NCBI GenBank assembly: GCA_018831055.1
Contig: JAHJRE010000197.1
Coordinates: 1-38,507, forward strand
Length of the DNA: 38,507 nucleotides
Direction of reading: 5' to 3'
Origin: Bacteroidota bacterium
Lineage (GTDB): Bacteria; Bacteroidota; Bacteroidia; Bacteroidales; B18-G4
Position numbers and translations under genes: made by a program. This document shows, piece after piece, positions 8,198 through 13,037 of this stretch; within the stretch, counting starts at the first letter, position 1; each line of letters starts with the position of its first letter. The notes under the pieces were generated by a model. It saw nothing but the letters and a program-made list of their open reading frames with translations, had not been told where the DNA came from and searched no databases.

Positions 8198-8229
8198 TGA
8201 AAAAAAAATGAAAAAAAATGAAAAAAAAA
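8198..8229 (+). promoter_or_regulatory. Three phased A-tracts upstream of the ECF sigma promoter
   Basis: Three consecutive TG-A(8-9) units (A-runs at 8200-8208, 8211-8218 and 8221-8229) repeat every 10-11 bp, in phase with the DNA helix. They end 9 nt before the shared promoter element. Such tracts bend DNA and can act as UP elements. A similar pair lies upstream of the peptide gene at 13020-13037. Confidence 0.6.
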
Positions 8230-8238
8230 TTCAAGACG

Positions 8239-8271
8239 AAGGGTTACCTTTTGAAAATTTTGGAACTAATA
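8239..8271 (+). promoter_or_regulatory. Putative ECF-type promoter of the sigma/anti-sigma operon
   Basis: The element aagggttaccttttg (8239-8253) is followed 13 nt later by taa (8267-8269) within an AT-rich -10-like stretch. The same 15-mer with the same spacing to TAA precedes the small GG-peptide gene on the minus strand (13009-12979). This is what autoregulation by an ECF sigma factor would look like. It would place the RNA start only about 5-10 nt before the ATG at 8285. Confidence 0.55.
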
Positions 8272-8284
8272 AAAGGATAAGGAG

Positions 8285-8851
8285 ATGCATTACATTGAGG
8301 AATCGTTGCTTGAAGGCATACGATTAAACGATACGGATACATTAGAGTACATCTACAAGAAGTTTTATCCGGCAATCAAAAACTTTATTATCCTAAACAG
8401 TGGAGCAGAGGATGACGCAAAAGACATCTTTCAGGAGTCTATTATTGTCATCTATAGGAGACTTAAAAACGAAAAGAATTTTGCTATTTCTTGTTCCTTT
8501 AAAACATACATTTTTTCCATCAGCAAAAATTTATGGCTTAAAGAACTGGAAAGGCGAAAGATAGAACAGGACAAGATAAGATATACCGAAGATTTTGAAT
8601 CTGTCGACATTGAAACAGGGGAGAGCGTTTCAAGTCCGATTGAGGATAGATTTAAAATGTATCAGAATCATTATCTAAGTCTGAGTAAAGATTGTCAGCA
8701 AGTCCTGCGCTTATTTATGGAAAAGGTATCCCTGAAGGAGATAGCAAAAATCATGGGATACACAAGTGAGAAATATGCAAAAAAAAGAAAGTATCAATGC
8801 AAGGAGATTTTAGTCAAACGCATTAAAAATGATCCCTACTATAAAACTTAG
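8285..8851 (+). CDS. ECF-family RNA polymerase sigma factor
   Basis: 188 residues with the two-domain ECF layout. Region 2 covers about residues 16-90 (DTLEYIYKKFYPAIKNFI, then the acidic DDAKDIFQES core-binding helix and FKTYIFSISKNLWLKEL). Region 4 covers about 120-180 (LSKDCQQVLRLFMEKVSLKEIAKIMG followed by YAKKRKYQCKEIL, the DNA-recognition helix-turn-helix). It should redirect RNA polymerase to a small set of promoters, probably including its own, given the shared element at 8239. It is followed after 5 nt by a membrane TPR protein that looks like its anti-sigma factor. The ATG is preceded by ggag with no spacing, so initiation may not depend on Shine-Dalgarno pairing. Confidence 0.93.
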   Translation: MHYIEESLLEGIRLNDTDTLEYIYKKFYPAIKNFIILNSGAEDDAKDIFQESIIVIYRRLKNEKNFAISCSFKTYIFSISKNLWLKELERRKIEQDKIRYTEDFESVDIETGESVSSPIEDRFKMYQNHYLSLSKDCQQVLRLFMEKVSLKEIAKIMGYTSEKYAKKRKYQCKEILVKRIKNDPYYKT

Positions 8852-8856
8852 AGCAA

Positions 8857-9624
8857 ATGAAAAACATTGAAAACAGTCTTGTCGCCCTCATCGACCGCAA
8901 GATAAACAATGAGTTAACTGAAGACGAGCTCAGGAATTTCGATGAATTACTGGGCAACGATCCCGCACTTGACCAGGAGGTCAGACTTTACCAGGAAATA
9001 GACGAAGCGTTGAATGAAACTGATGTTATCGACTTAAGAAGTAATCTCGATAACATTTATCAGTTCACCCAACGTCCTGAGTCGACTACCATTGTCAGAT
9101 CACTGTTCAGGAGCAAGTTACACAGAATTGCGGCAGCTGCCTTCTTTCTTGTCCTTCTGTTTGGCAGCATTTCACTTTATTTCATGAATGCCGATAAGCC
9201 GGTAACGAATGAAAACCTTTTCAGGATTTATTATCAACCGGACGCTGCTTTGCTCATCCGTGGTCAGTCTGAAGACAAAATGCTGATCGAAGGGTTCCAG
9301 AAATATGAGACCCGGGATTACACTGCAGCTCTTGAATTGTTTAATAAAATCCTTGATCAGGATCCTAACAACATTCCAGTTCAGTTTTATGCAGGAATAT
9401 CCAGTATTGAAACAGGAAAATACAGGAATGCTCTGAAGCCTTTCAACAACATTGTTAATCAGAATCAAAACCTCTACCAGGATAAAGCCAAATGGTATGC
9501 AGGCCTTTGCTATCTGAAGCTCAATGAAAACGACAAGGCTTATGATATCTTTAAGGAAATAAGCAACAGCAACAGTGCTTATAAGTACAAAGCCAAGAAT
9601 ATCATAAAGAGTATTAACAGGTAA
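8857..9624 (+). CDS. Probable membrane anti-sigma factor with extracytoplasmic TPR domain
   Basis: 255 residues in three parts. A cytoplasmic acidic helical N-terminus (1-85) with NELTEDELRNFDELLGND resembles anti-sigma domains in Bacteroidota that lack the HxxxCxxC zinc motif. A single membrane segment lies at about 91-110 (AAAAFFLVLLFGSISLYF). An external part (about 139-240) has roughly three TPR-like helical pairs, such as YTAALELFNKILDQDPNN and YRNALKPFNNIVNQ. The position 5 nt after the sigma gene supports sigma sequestration at the membrane, with the TPRs sensing a partner outside. I infer that the partner could be the nearby TPR-CHAT protein or its peptide. Anti-sigma activity is inferred from context, not from a conserved motif. 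Confidence 0.72.
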   Translation: MKNIENSLVALIDRKINNELTEDELRNFDELLGNDPALDQEVRLYQEIDEALNETDVIDLRSNLDNIYQFTQRPESTTIVRSLFRSKLHRIAAAAFFLVLLFGSISLYFMNADKPVTNENLFRIYYQPDAALLIRGQSEDKMLIEGFQKYETRDYTAALELFNKILDQDPNNIPVQFYAGISSIETGKYRNALKPFNNIVNQNQNLYQDKAKWYAGLCYLKLNENDKAYDIFKEISNSNSAYKYKAKNIIKSINR

Positions 9625-9903
9625 ACCCCGGTAAGGATCATTTTCCCTGTATTTTTTTAATCACGACTCGGATATTGAATTTTGAAGTTACTTACTAAAG
9701 TTCTTTGTTTTTTGATATTGATTTATTGCAAACCATATAGTCAACCTCCCAAAAGTTGACTCCCTATGACCAGTTCATTAACAAAGTTGTTTAATTTTTT
9801 TTTCGGAAGGTTTTCAACCTCACAATAGACTTATGACTTAATCAGAAGCGGAAACTGTACTCACAGTTTCCGCCTTCTTTATCCCAAAAGAAAGCAACAA
9901 GAC
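9625..9903. other. Convergent intergenic region with two hairpins
   Basis: 279 nt between the convergent anti-sigma and TPR-CHAT genes. It contains a 7-bp stem agtcaac/gttgact (9739-9745 and 9755-9761) without a T-run, and the strong bidirectional hairpin listed separately. No convincing gene is seen. The only short ATG frame (20 codons from 9766) has nothing to support it. Confidence 0.6.
9844..9880. terminator. Bidirectional terminator hairpin between the two converging operons
   Basis: A perfect 10-bp stem gcggaaactg (9848-9857)/cagtttccgc (9864-9873) with a 6-nt loop extends through gaag/cttc with one bulge. It is followed by cttcttta on the plus side and ttctgatta on the minus side. It lies between the stops of the sigma operon and the CHAT gene and can serve both. 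Confidence 0.75.
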
Positions 9904-12696
9904 TTAATAAGATTTAATTTTTCGTTGGCGCAGAATCCAAAAGACTGATACCAGAATGATAACCAACCCCAGGGCCCCTGCCAGATAAGGCAGGGCCTTT
10001 TGTTTTTGATAAAGGGATCCATTATAACCTATATTGACATAACCGCTCCAGAGATAGGGATGTGCTGTAAGCATATCGGCAGTTGCAAGATATTCAAGTT
10101 TGGCCTTTTGCAGAGCAATATCAATCTCGTAGCCATCCGATAAATGCTGATAAAATAGTTTCATTAATTCCGATCCTGATTGATCCTCAACTGCCCAAAG
10201 TGTCATTACGATGCCTGGAACCCCCGCATAAAAGAATCCTCTGGCCAAACTCATTATACCTTCACCTTTCTGAAGCTTTCCAGATCCTGTATTACATGCA
10301 CTTAATACTGCCAACCTGGCTTTAAGATCCGCATTATAGATTTCATAAGTATTCAATAAACCATCTTTGTTTTCAGCAGTATCATTGTTTAATGTAAAAA
10401 CAAGCTGCGAGTACATTGGATTATCATCGTTGATCAGAGTATGCATCGCAAAATGTAAGACATCATATTGTGAAGCTTCTTTCCAAAATGCTTCTTCGGT
10501 TGCTTCATAATCCTGATATACTTTACCTTTTATTATACTGCTGATGCCAGAGGTCTCTTCTTTAACAAAGCGCAGGGGGACTAAATCGTATTTATAATTA
10601 CGACTGGCAATAAACTTACCGGTATCAATTACCGATACATTTTCATAGGTAGGAGCAAACGCCAGCAAATTCAATCTTTTTCCTTTTTCAATCTTTTTTT
10701 GCTGTATTAACATATTTGCCGAATATGAATAACTGACCGGGTGACTTCTTAATAAATACGGTAAATTTTTAAAATCAAATTCACCAGGAGCAGGCTCGGC
10801 GGTTAAAAGTACTTCAAAAGGAAGATATCCCAATTGATTATCCGGTATGATAATCAATCTTTTATTCTTTATTACAGGCTCGACATCTGAAAACAATAGT
10901 ACATATAAATTGTGCAAATTACCGTTTAAGTCATTATATTCTTCAATTCCAATATTTCCGAACCTGTTGTCTTTCAGTTTTGAAATTACGTTATCAAGTG
11001 ACTTATAAAAGAGTGAATCAATGTTCTTAGGGAAAATATCAAAATCGTTGCGGGTTATAACAAACATATAAAGCAACGTATCTGTCATAGTAAATTCAAT
11101 TATAGCTTCGTTCCGGGCAATCTGGCTTTGAATCTCTTCTACAGATGCTATTTTATTATCATATTTAAGTTCATAGTAATCGGGATACTCATCCTGAAGG
11201 AAAGTCATCAGACTATCGTATTGTCTACTTAACTCCAGGGCCTTACTCTGCCAACGTATTATCTTGCCAGTATCAGGTTCTCGTTTTTGTCTTTCCTCAT
11301 ACAACTTTTTATCATAAAAGTCTGCTTCTATAAGTATGTTCTTTTCAAAACGCTGCAATTTCTCCGGAATACCATATACTTGCTTGTTTTGTAAATCAAG
11401 TACAGCAGAAGACAAAACGGCAGCCTTGCCTTTTTCAGCCATTACAAATGCTGTCATTTTGTATTCGTTTTCCCCAGTATGCGTGTATAACTCATTACTT
11501 ACAATGAGGGCAGCATTATAGCTATCCCGGGCATTTTGAGTAATAAATAATTTACTCTCTTCATCAAGATATCCTCCACGCATCTTTTCTATCATGTATG
11601 CCAGGATATCATACACTTCCATACTCTCGATGAGCCATCGCCGATCTTTATTCCCACCCTGGAAATAAATCCTGGATAATGCTTCAGCCTTAAAACTCAA
11701 TGCACTCAGAAGCATTGTCTGCATTAACAGGTTATCCTTTTCGGGATTTTCAAAAATGCTTGTATCCTTGAAATTTTCCACCAGAGAGATAATTGAAAGC
11801 TGAAACATTTCAAGTGCTTTTCGATATTGGCCCTTGTCGAGATAATAACTTCCCTTTGGTTGGTAAACCCCTGAATGAAATGTGCTAAGAGGACCCAATA
11901 CTTCATCATAAAGCTGTATAGCCTTCTCAAAGTACTCCAGGCCGCTCTCATCTTTCCCCTGAAGAATTTTTAGTTGCGCAAGATTCAGATATGATTCACC
12001 CAATTTATAATTGCGCTCGCCAAAATACTTGATCTTATTGTCAATAGACTTCGTTGTATACTCCTCCGCCAGACTATATTCATTCAATCCGGCATAAGCC
12101 ATAGCGCAATTTGCAAATGCAACGGAAAGATCTTCCGGCTCATAATCCTCTTTAATCTCAATGCTTTTGAGGAACATCTCCAAAGCTCTACCGAATTCAC
12201 TCTGGATCAAATATATAATGCCAATATTATTGTAAACCTGAGCGGCACTCTTCATGCCTGAAGGGCTGGATAAAAAAATATTTAATGCATTATTATAATA
12301 GCGTAACGCCTGGAAATAATCTCCCTTGTCTTTAAAAACAATCCCTTTATTATTATAAACACTTGCTATATATAATTCTTCAGAATTCGAAGAAGAAAGG
12401 TACAATTTCTCAGCCTGATTAAAATAATCAAGCGATTCATCATACTTTCCCTGCAACCGGAAAAAAATTCCCAGATTGTTATATGCAGGTGCAAATGATG
12501 AATCGCTTGTAACGGCCTTTAGGAAATACATCCTGGCATCGTCAAAGTTCCCTTTTGCTGCAGCACTTCTACCAAGGCGGTTATACTCTTCCGCTGTTTT
12601 TTCCTCAGGGTTAGTAGCCTGCATACCTTTTGCCATCATAAAAAATGACAAAAAAATAGCAGTTAGGCATAAATTTGCGCACAAACGAACCTTCAT
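9904..12696 (-). CDS. Secreted or periplasmic TPR-CHAT protease-like protein with C-terminal membrane anchor
   Basis: 930 residues. A signal peptide (about 1-27, LCLTAIFLSFFMMAKG) precedes multiple tetratricopeptide repeats (about 35-330, for example AYNNLGIFFRLQGKYDESLDYFNQAEK). A helical middle region follows, then a CHAT domain (about 610-890). CHAT domains are caspase-like cysteine proteases. The catalytic pair is intact: His752 in HFAMH and Cys801 in LSACNTG, followed by GEGIMSLARGFFYAGVPGIVMTLW. A hydrophobic segment at about 901-922 with a basic tail RQRKIKSY would anchor the C-terminus, leaving TPR and CHAT outside the cytoplasm. A 47-residue GG-type peptide gene lies 69 nt upstream on the same strand, so the two are probably cotranscribed. 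I infer that the protease may cut that peptide or a TPR-bound partner; no substrate is proven. Confidence 0.9.
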   Translation of the reverse strand: MKVRLCANLCLTAIFLSFFMMAKGMQATNPEEKTAEEYNRLGRSAAAKGNFDDARMYFLKAVTSDSSFAPAYNNLGIFFRLQGKYDESLDYFNQAEKLYLSSSNSEELYIASVYNNKGIVFKDKGDYFQALRYYNNALNIFLSSPSGMKSAAQVYNNIGIIYLIQSEFGRALEMFLKSIEIKEDYEPEDLSVAFANCAMAYAGLNEYSLAEEYTTKSIDNKIKYFGERNYKLGESYLNLAQLKILQGKDESGLEYFEKAIQLYDEVLGPLSTFHSGVYQPKGSYYLDKGQYRKALEMFQLSIISLVENFKDTSIFENPEKDNLLMQTMLLSALSFKAEALSRIYFQGGNKDRRWLIESMEVYDILAYMIEKMRGGYLDEESKLFITQNARDSYNAALIVSNELYTHTGENEYKMTAFVMAEKGKAAVLSSAVLDLQNKQVYGIPEKLQRFEKNILIEADFYDKKLYEERQKREPDTGKIIRWQSKALELSRQYDSLMTFLQDEYPDYYELKYDNKIASVEEIQSQIARNEAIIEFTMTDTLLYMFVITRNDFDIFPKNIDSLFYKSLDNVISKLKDNRFGNIGIEEYNDLNGNLHNLYVLLFSDVEPVIKNKRLIIIPDNQLGYLPFEVLLTAEPAPGEFDFKNLPYLLRSHPVSYSYSANMLIQQKKIEKGKRLNLLAFAPTYENVSVIDTGKFIASRNYKYDLVPLRFVKEETSGISSIIKGKVYQDYEATEEAFWKEASQYDVLHFAMHTLINDDNPMYSQLVFTLNNDTAENKDGLLNTYEIYNADLKARLAVLSACNTGSGKLQKGEGIMSLARGFFYAGVPGIVMTLWAVEDQSGSELMKLFYQHLSDGYEIDIALQKAKLEYLATADMLTAHPYLWSGYVNIGYNGSLYQKQKALPYLAGALGLVIILVSVFWILRQRKIKSY

Positions 12697-12765
12697 ATTA
12701 CAAAACTATGAAATTTAGCTGTTGGCGCAGCCTAAAACAAAATAAAAAAATTGTCGGAGGATATC

Positions 12766-12909
12766 TTACAACCAGATATCGTCATCCTCCTCTTGCATGA
12801 GCTTGGTGGGATCGCTGTCGTTGATTCCCCCCCTGACCATGTTAAGTTCAGTGTTGTTGAGTACTGCAAAAGAATACTCCTGACCTTCAAAAAATTTTGA
12901 AGTTTTCAT
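12766..12909 (-). CDS. 47-residue peptide with double-glycine-type leader, upstream of the TPR-CHAT gene
   Basis: A short ORF starts at the ATG on the minus strand (12909) and stops at 12766. Its N-terminal part (MKTSKFFEGQEYSFAV) leads into LNNTELNMVRGG, which fits the classical double-glycine leader at every key position: L -12, E -8, L -7, V -4, G -2, G -1. The remaining 19 residues (INDSDPTKLMQEEDDDIWL) form a strongly acidic tail without cysteine and ending in an aromatic-hydrophobic WL. Such leaders are normally cut by C39 peptidase ABC exporters, none of which is visible here. A promoter element shared with the ECF sigma operon lies 70-100 nt upstream. That the frame is real is supported by the motif and the context. 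Its function (pheromone, CHAT substrate, bacteriocin-like peptide) is unknown. Confidence 0.72.
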   Translation of the reverse strand: MKTSKFFEGQEYSFAVLNNTELNMVRGGINDSDPTKLMQEEDDDIWL

Positions 12910-12978
12910 TTACTCACAATTTAAAAGTTCGACTTAGACTTAACTTATTCCCAAAAGATGTAGACTTATTGCAGTTAT

Positions 12979-13009
12979 TTATACGGTAGGAATGCAAAAG
13001 GTAACCCTT
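12979..13009 (-). promoter_or_regulatory. Putative ECF-type promoter of the GG-peptide/CHAT unit
   Basis: The minus strand carries aagggttaccttttg (13009-12995), identical to the element before the ECF sigma gene, then 13 nt and TAA (12981-12979) inside gtataaataa. It predicts an RNA start near 12970, a leader of about 60 nt for the peptide gene and read-through into the CHAT gene. Confidence 0.55.
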
Positions 13010-13019
13010 AAATCAAAAC

Positions 13020-13037
13020 TTTTTTTTGATTTTTTTT
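13020..13037 (-). promoter_or_regulatory. Two phased A-tracts upstream of the GG-peptide promoter
   Basis: Two A8 runs on the minus strand (T-runs 13020-13027 and 13030-13037 on plus) are spaced by 10 bp and end 10 nt before the shared element. This is the same arrangement as upstream of the sigma gene. Confidence 0.5.

Follow-up and report, generated by a model that had tools for sequence, protein, structure and literature searches.

Results

Two converging transcription units with a common promoter element

We analysed a 38,507-nucleotide stretch of DNA (hereafter the window; positions 1-38,507 of contig JAHJRE010000197.1) from the 4.19-Mb, 342-contig assembly GCA_018831055.1 of a Bacteroidota bacterium, in which two converging units encode an extracytoplasmic function (ECF) sigma factor, a candidate anti-sigma factor with tetratricopeptide repeats (TPRs), a TPR-CHAT protein and a small double-glycine peptide. 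A sequence-only reading had placed these four genes there, and a check of open reading frames (ORFs) and profiles found each of them in its position; their occurrence as a set is confirmed to exceed chance. The forward unit begins with the -35-like element AAGGGTTACCTTTT (8239..8252, + strand), followed by the gene for the 188-residue sigma factor (8285..8851, +) and, after a gap of 5 nt, by that for the candidate anti-sigma factor (8857..9624, +). The reverse unit starts with the identical 14-mer (12996..13009, -), has GTAT 15 nt after GGGTTACC, and continues with the peptide gene (12766..12909, -), which ends 69 nt before the gene for the 930-residue TPR-CHAT protein (9904..12696, -). These two positions, 8239 on the + strand and 12996 on the - strand, are the only exact copies of AAGGGTTACCTTTT in the window, bearing out the shared promoter architecture of the sequence-only reading; with up to two mismatches, there are 7 matches against 0.47 expected.

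The first gene of the forward unit encodes an ECF sigma factor, matching TIGR02937 with 54.6 bits (cut-off 42.9) over residues 19-178 and PF04542 with 22.1 bits, slightly below the cut-off of 24. Its neighbour matches TPR families of Pfam and resembles transmembrane anti-sigma factors, as a matter of anatomy only, in lying beside a sigma gene and having one transmembrane (TM) segment and a helical N-terminus. The model of this protein (predicted local distance difference test score, pLDDT, 85.5) shows helices within residues 2-71 and a single long helix at 81-111, and most of the relatives scored have one hydrophobic peak near residue 85-100, in agreement with the single span ascribed to it earlier. 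Across 39 aligned candidates we see a common N-terminal helical region, one TM segment, a YYxP...R motif just outside the membrane and C-terminal TPRs. Among the 25 of 34 Pfam families listed, none was a known anti-sigma domain that matched the N-terminal domain; the fold search spanned residues 135-255, where the TPR part matched YbgF, BamD and type III chaperones; the TPR model also matched HOP-MEEVD, as do many TPRs.

The TPR-CHAT protein matches PF12770 with 173 bits (cut-off 24) over residues 595-890, and TPR families as well. His748, His752 and Cys801 are invariant in all 59 alignment rows, representing 56 distinct proteins, so that the His/Cys pair described as intact in the window is intact throughout. 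With PF12770 and a conserved His/Cys dyad, as expected of CHAT proteases, the protein is best read as a predicted catalytically intact protease. Hydropathy, the sole basis for its topology, agrees with the signal peptide and C-terminal anchor that had been assigned to it: a signal-like N-terminal hydrophobic stretch is present in 46 of the 59 rows and a C-terminal TM stretch in 58, and the protein is predicted to face the outside of the cytoplasm. In its AlphaFold model (34 alignment rows, mean pLDDT 85.9), the loop 803-811 following Cys801 has a pLDDT under 50, as might be expected if the protease required activation. The best structural match of the model is Csx29 (7y9x_B; Z 28.2, root-mean-square deviation (rmsd) 6.2, 589 aligned), followed by separase. 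The anti-sigma factor DdvA reaches Z 21.5 (rmsd 12.7, 569 aligned), with residues 373-991 of its chain aligning with residues 67-890 of the model (PDB 8rot, 8rw5). A sequence search with the C-terminal 411 residues retrieved no solved structure, two chance matches aside.

Recurrence of the gene set

Sixty genomes, including the source genome, were searched with the sigma protein, the CHAT alignment and the small-RNA covariance model described below. The sigma protein had matches at 31 places in 21 of them, and in the 30 neighbourhoods outside the window, genes for TPR anti-sigma-like and TPR-CHAT proteins recur beside sigma. Among the 51 matches of the CHAT alignment, a sigma match was present within 5 kb for 17 of the 24 that score over 700 bits, against 2 of the 27 weaker ones (Fisher test, 5e-6; counts uncorrected for contig ends), and 19 of the 31 sigma places have such a CHAT gene within 5 kb.

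A larger sample was obtained by searching species genomes with a sigma alignment, the best 80 of at least 514 confirmed stretches being retained. These loci (numbered L; G denotes genomes, with G000 the source genome, and C contigs of the source genome) stem mostly from Bacteroidales or Bacteroidetes metagenome-assembled genomes, together with Marinifilum, Labilibaculum, Lentimicrobium and one Spirosoma, and overlap the 60-genome neighbourhoods at a few places. With anti-sigma genes scored within 6 kb of sigma and CHAT genes within 8 kb, 52 loci have the former, 50 the latter and 46 both; in 46 of the 80 the anti-sigma gene lies directly 3' of sigma. CHAT accompanies 46 of the 52 loci with the anti-sigma gene and 4 of the 28 without it (Fisher test, 5e-11, with loci non-independent through shared ancestry), and in the 56 loci flanked by 4 kb or more on each side the figures are 39 of 42 and 1 of 14. 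The sequence-only reading had made its circuit depend on co-occurrence of these genes in related genomes, and co-occurrence is what both samples yielded. CHAT is convergent with sigma in 27 of its 50 loci and co-directional in 1, while in 22 it is located on the opposite strand, upstream of sigma.

In a quick tree of 95 sigma rows, CHAT occurs on most deep branches, with at least seven changes between its presence and absence. One supported clade of 19 rows has CHAT in none; 12 of these have flanks that are long enough, and 7 lie close to the end of a contig. In this clade (L117, L120-L122, L124, L125, L134, L135, L137, L138, L141-L143, L148, L149, L151, L152, L162 and L164), we found neither CHAT nor a comparable anti-sigma gene or promoter.

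The source genome carries a second sigma/anti-sigma/CHAT set on contig C233 (L058, 5607-9851), all three genes being co-directional; its CHAT protein ends without a C-terminal hydrophobic stretch, and the 700 nt before the CHAT gene contain no double-glycine peptide. In L047 (3146-4492), a single 448-residue ORF has matches to sigma as well as to anti-sigma and may be a natural fusion.

Promoter sites and the candidate regulon

The 13-mer AAGGGTTACCTTT has six copies in the source genome and none in a reversed control. The window holds two of them, a tandem pair lies between genes on C24, and the other two, on C132 and C176, fall within reading frames. At three of the four intergenic sites, GTAT follows exactly 15 nt after GGGTTACC. 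Across the nine genomes of the source genome's own family (the family set), the pattern GGGTTACCTTTN{11,13}GTA occurs at 15 sites in seven genomes, against 2 in the reversed control, upstream of sigma (3), peptides (5), small RNAs (5), a lipoprotein-like ORF (1) and a secreted-protein-like ORF (1).

Of the 80 loci, 39 have such a promoter ahead of sigma, against 0 in the reversed or reverse-complement controls; all 39 are among the 52 loci with the anti-sigma gene, and 0 among the 28 without. A second pattern, applied to both strands of the 80 loci, gave 54 sites against 2 in reversed sequence. HTH-like (helix-turn-helix) ORFs in L126 and L131 aside, four further sites of this pattern seem unrelated (L142 and L164, without a gene of the set; L105, 222 nt before a transporter). 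Since sigma and the peptide or peptide-CHAT unit have a conserved common promoter, and the genes co-occur, the sequences lend good support to the proposal of the sequence-only reading that the sigma factor turns on peptide plus protease; that sigma probably drives its own operon and the peptide-CHAT unit is the best-supported part of the regulatory scheme.

For the cultured relatives we used the pattern GGGTTACCTTTN{10,14}GGAATWA, which has 6, 6 and 7 sites in two Marinifilum and one Labilibaculum genomes and 0 in the reversed control; the two genomes carrying L090 and L106 have different promoters and no such site. The 19 sites precede the sigma operon (3), peptide arrays (3), Peptidase C25 genes with propeptide (3), lipoprotein-like ORFs (4), small HTH-like proteins (2), an EamA transporter farther off (2) and an HTH-like/HlyD unit (1; in Labilibaculum, with a C39 gene 1.9 kb on), while one has no clear assignment. 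The HTH matches of these proteins and of the unit fall below their cut-offs in the profile scan, and two of the three C25 proteases were scanned and confirmed by profile.

The C25 genes (L189, L202 and L203, in the two Marinifilum genomes and the Labilibaculum genome) encode gingipain-type proteases, L203 being assigned by sequence likeness only. At L194 and L196, the promoter lies 160-205 nt ahead of the EamA gene, leaving a leader seemingly long enough for another small RNA. In loci of the Lentimicrobium type (L094, L101, L109, L113, L114, L118 and L155), a sigma-type promoter also precedes a divergent gene for a secreted protein of 403-430 residues; that of L113, the sole one scanned, has a type IX secretion system (T9SS) tail, an SdrD-like match and a weak dockerin match.

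Peptides and C39 exporters

The 47-residue peptide of the window consists of a 28-residue double-glycine leader and a 19-residue acidic core, INDSDPTKLMQEEDDDIWL, and is likely an exported product. In four loci of the family (L042-L045), a double-glycine peptide of 37-39 residues lies between promoter and CHAT. A motif search of the 80 loci returned 45 small ORFs against 4 in reversed sequence, some of them plainly unrelated (L088, L148, L149, L162) and many of them tandem copies. In 19 of 50 loci, CHAT has at least one peptide gene within 1.6 kb (reversed control, 1 of 50), not counting a match in L112 that is the tail of CHAT itself; the 19 are a lower bound because peptides truncated at the end of a contig, as in L129, escape the search. 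The peptide genes of Marinifilum and Labilibaculum are arranged in tandem, divergent from CHAT; L092 (Marinifilum) holds six 97-nt copies spaced at 153-168 nt, five of them sharing 91-100% identity with the reference copy and the sixth 72%.

All 26 aligned peptides contain GG, itself a selection criterion. Their cores comprise 12-38 residues, are net negative in 25 cases and of zero charge in one, and lack cysteine in 21, the other five having one or two. At E-values up to 1, Bacteriocin_IIc matches 13 of the 26, ComC 9 and TIGR04149 10 (best E 1.6e-4). The window peptide scores 14 bits against Bacteriocin_IIc (cut-off 27.1) and has no match in NCBIfam or PHROGs; its core of 19 residues without cysteine lies outside the 42-48 residues with cysteines that characterise bacteroidetocins.

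A C39 exporter is encoded within 10 kb in 11 of the 80 loci. Together with HlyD it lies downstream of the peptides in L090, L106, L133, L139 and L146; it directly follows sigma/anti-sigma in L088, L095, L057 and L061 (HlyD not matched in L061), and is found about 7-10 kb away, on the other side of sigma, in L091, L123, L129 and L130. The window has no C39 exporter at the locus, the single C39 match of the source genome being on contig C176; of the seven family genomes searched, six have a single C39 gene and G007 none. Between peptides and C39 gene there are histidine-kinase-like ORFs in L106 (16564-17406), L133 (15331-16898) and L146 (10704-12233), and LytTR-like ORFs in the same interval of L133 and L146, the assignments in the latter two loci being made by eye.

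Predicted short transcripts and other features

The promoter also heads two tandem small-RNA-like stretches on contig C24 of the source genome (L007, 5100-5430), each with a hairpin and a T-run within about 100 nt. The family small RNAs (L165-L173) occur as a tandem pair in three of six genomes, mostly under the promoter type of the window sigma gene. They align well among themselves, their conserved parts being a terminator with the loop TGGTC and AGATTTGGG. A covariance model built from four of these genomes found nine copies in 6 of the 60 genomes, all six belonging to the nine of the family and two (G003, G006) being new finds; in the 51 non-family genomes it found no copy under strict filters, which weak copies may escape. 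The nine copies have a full promoter in five cases, one mismatch in one (G006), the -35-like part alone in one (G003) and none in two. In all six genomes they adjoin a gene with the stretch AAIQGGA..VYFG, which we take to encode a U32-type peptidase. The terminator stem covaries, by eye, from GAGCG/CGCTC to GGACAC/GTGTCC, and three of the folds are more stable than shuffled sequences, with z-scores of -2.6 to -4.2. No match to Rfam reaches its gathering score (FopS, 20.4 versus 56). As for targets, reverse complements of CCCAAATCT and TTGACCAG have 0 and 2 matches in the window, which is not above chance; one TTGACCAG match falls within the anti-sigma gene, at 8969.

Between the converging units of the window, a consensus scan located a terminator-like hairpin of 11 pairs with a T-rich tail (9848..9873, +); the region has 7 terminator-like sites, against 3.6 (standard deviation 2.0) in shuffles. 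The surroundings appear to serve housekeeping and secretion, with a Mur ligase, PAPS reductase, a PKD protein, PorP/SprF, DPP IV, an integrase, EF-Tu, L10 and six tRNAs.

Discussion

Gene identities, co-occurrence, the common promoter, the intact dyad and, in some lineages, the linkage of peptides and exporters are supported by the sequences. We infer from them a topology, an anti-sigma activity, cleavage at a given site, export and peptide sensing, which together would make a CHAT-run transmembrane sigma switch, wherein CHAT cleaves the anti-sigma factor and sigma amplifies the circuit. This is the best explanation that we can offer, and we give it an even chance of being correct. The single-span TPR protein would, through its N-terminal domain, keep the ECF sigma factor at the inner membrane, while a separate TPR-CHAT protease would reside in the periplasm, anchored by its C-terminus. 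Once the TPR domains read a signal, CHAT would cut the anti-sigma factor, with the conserved juxtamembrane segment as the likeliest site, and intramembrane proteolysis of the RseP type would then release sigma; an M50 protease is encoded in the source genome, as it is in all 14 control genomes. Sigma would transcribe its own operon and the peptide-CHAT unit in a positive feedback, in the source family the small RNAs too, and in Marinifilum and Labilibaculum the sigma-dependent starts would lie downstream of GGGTTACCTTT. A C39 ABC transporter would export and trim the double-glycine peptide, whose acidic core would be the secreted product and a candidate TPR ligand.

The part of first protease on the anti-sigma factor most likely falls to CHAT, because it follows the sigma/anti-sigma pair more faithfully than peptide or exporter do, because its closest solved relative, Csx29, acts on a sigma inhibitor and its DdvA match is an anti-sigma factor, and because predictions place both the protease and its candidate substrate on the periplasmic side. 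The further proposal of the sequence-only reading, in which protease or peptide acts on the TPR domain of the anti-sigma protein, would be plausible by analogy with Csx29-Csx30 and DdvA. Several observations weigh against such a switch. The CHAT gene would itself be under sigma, so that basal expression is needed for CHAT to act first. Six of the 52 anti-sigma loci have no CHAT (L088, L095, L102, L128, L130, L145; some of these contigs are short), and in L088, L095 and L130, likewise in L057 and L061, a C39 exporter stands in its place. Mere presence of such an exporter is weak evidence, because 8 of the 14 control genomes have one. The window sigma promoter has AACT at the -10 place instead of GTA(T). 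No anti-sigma family is among the 25 listed of 34 Pfam families for the 39 aligned members, and NF052375 (anti-sigma factor) scores 20.9 bits with the window protein, far from its cut-off of 100. The match to DdvA draws its weight from the length covered and from what is reported of DdvA, because its TM-scores are low (0.24-0.25, with DdvA first by E-value in Foldseek) and TPR-only proteins such as LGN reach a similar Z of 22.9. A simple peptide-ligand model is disfavoured by the 31 of 50 CHAT loci in which no neighbouring peptide was found, and by one group whose promoter has a secreted protein of about 410 residues in the position of the peptide. The peptide was rejected as an essential part on these two grounds, the promoters concerned being those of the Lentimicrobium type.

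The same 31 loci count against a more specific proposal, in which the exported peptide is an autoinducer read by the TPRs of CHAT, of the anti-sigma factor or of both, so that a caspase-like receptor protease destroys the anti-sigma factor and sigma amplifies the response. Tandem peptide arrays would fit it, as would the single type of promoter that Labilibaculum has for peptide, exporter and sigma; the acidic ends of the cores, moreover, are of a kind that some TPR clamps bind. On balance we consider it rather unlikely. Somewhat better placed, though doubtful, is an arrangement in which the sigma/anti-sigma pair senses an envelope signal by way of another protease and peptide and CHAT are mere outputs of the regulon, CHAT processing peptides or envelope proteins. 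In its favour, the promoter targets are largely exported or export-related (peptides, C25 proteases, lipoprotein-like ORFs, the HlyD/C39 unit and the T9SS-tailed protein, though not the small HTH-like proteins, EamA and small RNAs), and CHAT lies behind the peptide at one promoter in the source family. Against it, the peptides are divergent from CHAT in Marinifilum and Labilibaculum, and the sigma/anti-sigma pair is accompanied more closely by CHAT than by the peptide (50 versus 19 of 80 loci).

That the peptides are bacteriocins, with sigma, CHAT and the small RNAs providing induction and self-protection, seems improbable: double-glycine leaders, the Bacteriocin_IIc and ComC matches, the C39 exporter near some loci and the co-regulated secreted proteases are in line with it, but the short, nearly always acidic and mostly cysteine-free cores are unlike bacteroidetocins A and B. 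Marginally less probable, in our view, is a defence or cell-death module comparable to antiphage regulation by DdvA and Craspase, to which the fold match of CHAT to DdvA and Csx29 would point; according to one report, DdvS controls an island with CBASS (cyclic oligonucleotide-based antiphage signalling system) and CRISPR (PMC12288465). Yet PADLOC gave weak TPR-type matches alone (PDC-S19, TPR) for the four proteins and a single match, of PAPS reductase to BrxP, for nine other window proteins; no defence gene was recognised in about 1.5 kb around the 19 promoter sites of the three genomes, seven ORFs at six sites having been scanned with Pfam; and CHAT is predicted to lie outside the cytoplasm. 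Unrelated neighbours with a chance likeness of promoters, for which we found nothing, deserve next to no credence and were rejected in view of the conserved synteny and the recurrence of the promoter in the 80 loci versus controls.

Returning to the CHAT-run switch, its caspase-like proteases would take their place in a recurrent two-protein sigma switch, with the dyad kept in every aligned copy, that occurs throughout Bacteroidales and in Spirosoma, the one genome from Cytophagales. A substrate hypothesis is provided by the conserved juxtamembrane stretch of the anti-sigma candidate, and a promoter set for reporters, the cultured hosts Marinifilum and Labilibaculum and a set of small peptides are at hand. 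Should the peptide be the signal, an ECF sigma factor would here serve quorum sensing with a caspase fold as the reader, in a caspase-driven quorum switch of Bacteroidota.

Parts of this scheme have parallels in known systems. The sigmaE response of E. coli proceeds through stepwise proteolysis of a membrane anti-sigma factor, in which peptide C-termini activate the first protease, and sigmaE drives small RNAs. The staged proteolysis established there for RseA, DegS and RseP is what we propose here; E. coli differs in using a serine PDZ protease, not CHAT, and peptides from misfolded porins, not from a dedicated gene. DdvS/DdvA of Myxococcus xanthus likewise pairs an ECF sigma factor with a transmembrane anti-sigma factor, and the part of DdvA that aligns with our CHAT model is, in a 2024 Science Advances paper, reportedly its periplasmic TPR-CHAT domain, said to have an incomplete His-Cys site. 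Whereas DdvA thus reportedly carries TPR-CHAT within the anti-sigma factor, here the two are encoded by separate genes on opposite strands, the anti-sigma candidate has TPRs of its own and the dyad is kept in 56 of 56 proteins. We know of no dedicated peptide, exporter or small RNA of DdvS/DdvA.

Craspase, of type III-E CRISPR, unites a TPR-CHAT protease, a sigma inhibitor and a sigma factor in one system: in PMC10028731, which also names DegS-RseA-RseP, Csx29 cleaves the sigma inhibitor Csx30, and CASP-sigma motifs occur inside the system's own locus. Craspase is described there as RNA-guided, with Cas7-11, whereas in the present gene set CHAT is predicted to lie outside the cytoplasm and the candidate inhibitor in the membrane; no cas family was found among 17 window proteins, a subset of the window ORFs, scanned with Pfam. 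Bacteroidetocins and other C39-exported peptides share the double-glycine leader and, in some loci, the C39 ABC exporter by the peptide; bacteroidetocins A and B have 42 residues with four cysteines (PMC6671954), while the cores here are short, mostly acidic and mostly cysteine-free, under an ECF-type promoter. ECF sigma and TPR genes also adjoin EACC2/caspase systems, where sigma factor, TPR protein and caspase domains form one neighbourhood; these differ in their EACC2, TRADD-N and DUF1822 domains, and the portion of PMC8195603 at hand does not mention a double-glycine peptide. The available parts of two further reports, on BcpT, an anti-sigma factor with an outer-membrane barrel (PMC9308784), and on Flavobacterium promoters with an ECF motif and a CGT -10 box (PMC9723704), contain no like sigma system.

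The sequence-only reading knew of no described system with exactly these parts. For the exact combination this stands, as we found no description of an ECF sigma factor with a separate periplasmic TPR-CHAT protein and a double-glycine peptide in a literature search that was judged by titles and the openings of abstracts and had thin coverage of subscription papers and preprints; as a statement about TPR-CHAT and sigma control it does not, since Craspase and DdvA already tie the two together. What appears to be a new variant is the split form with its intact dyad, peptides, linked exporter and small RNAs, of which we found no report, and the gene set is best read as a split relative, predicted to be catalytically intact, of the Craspase and DdvA switches.

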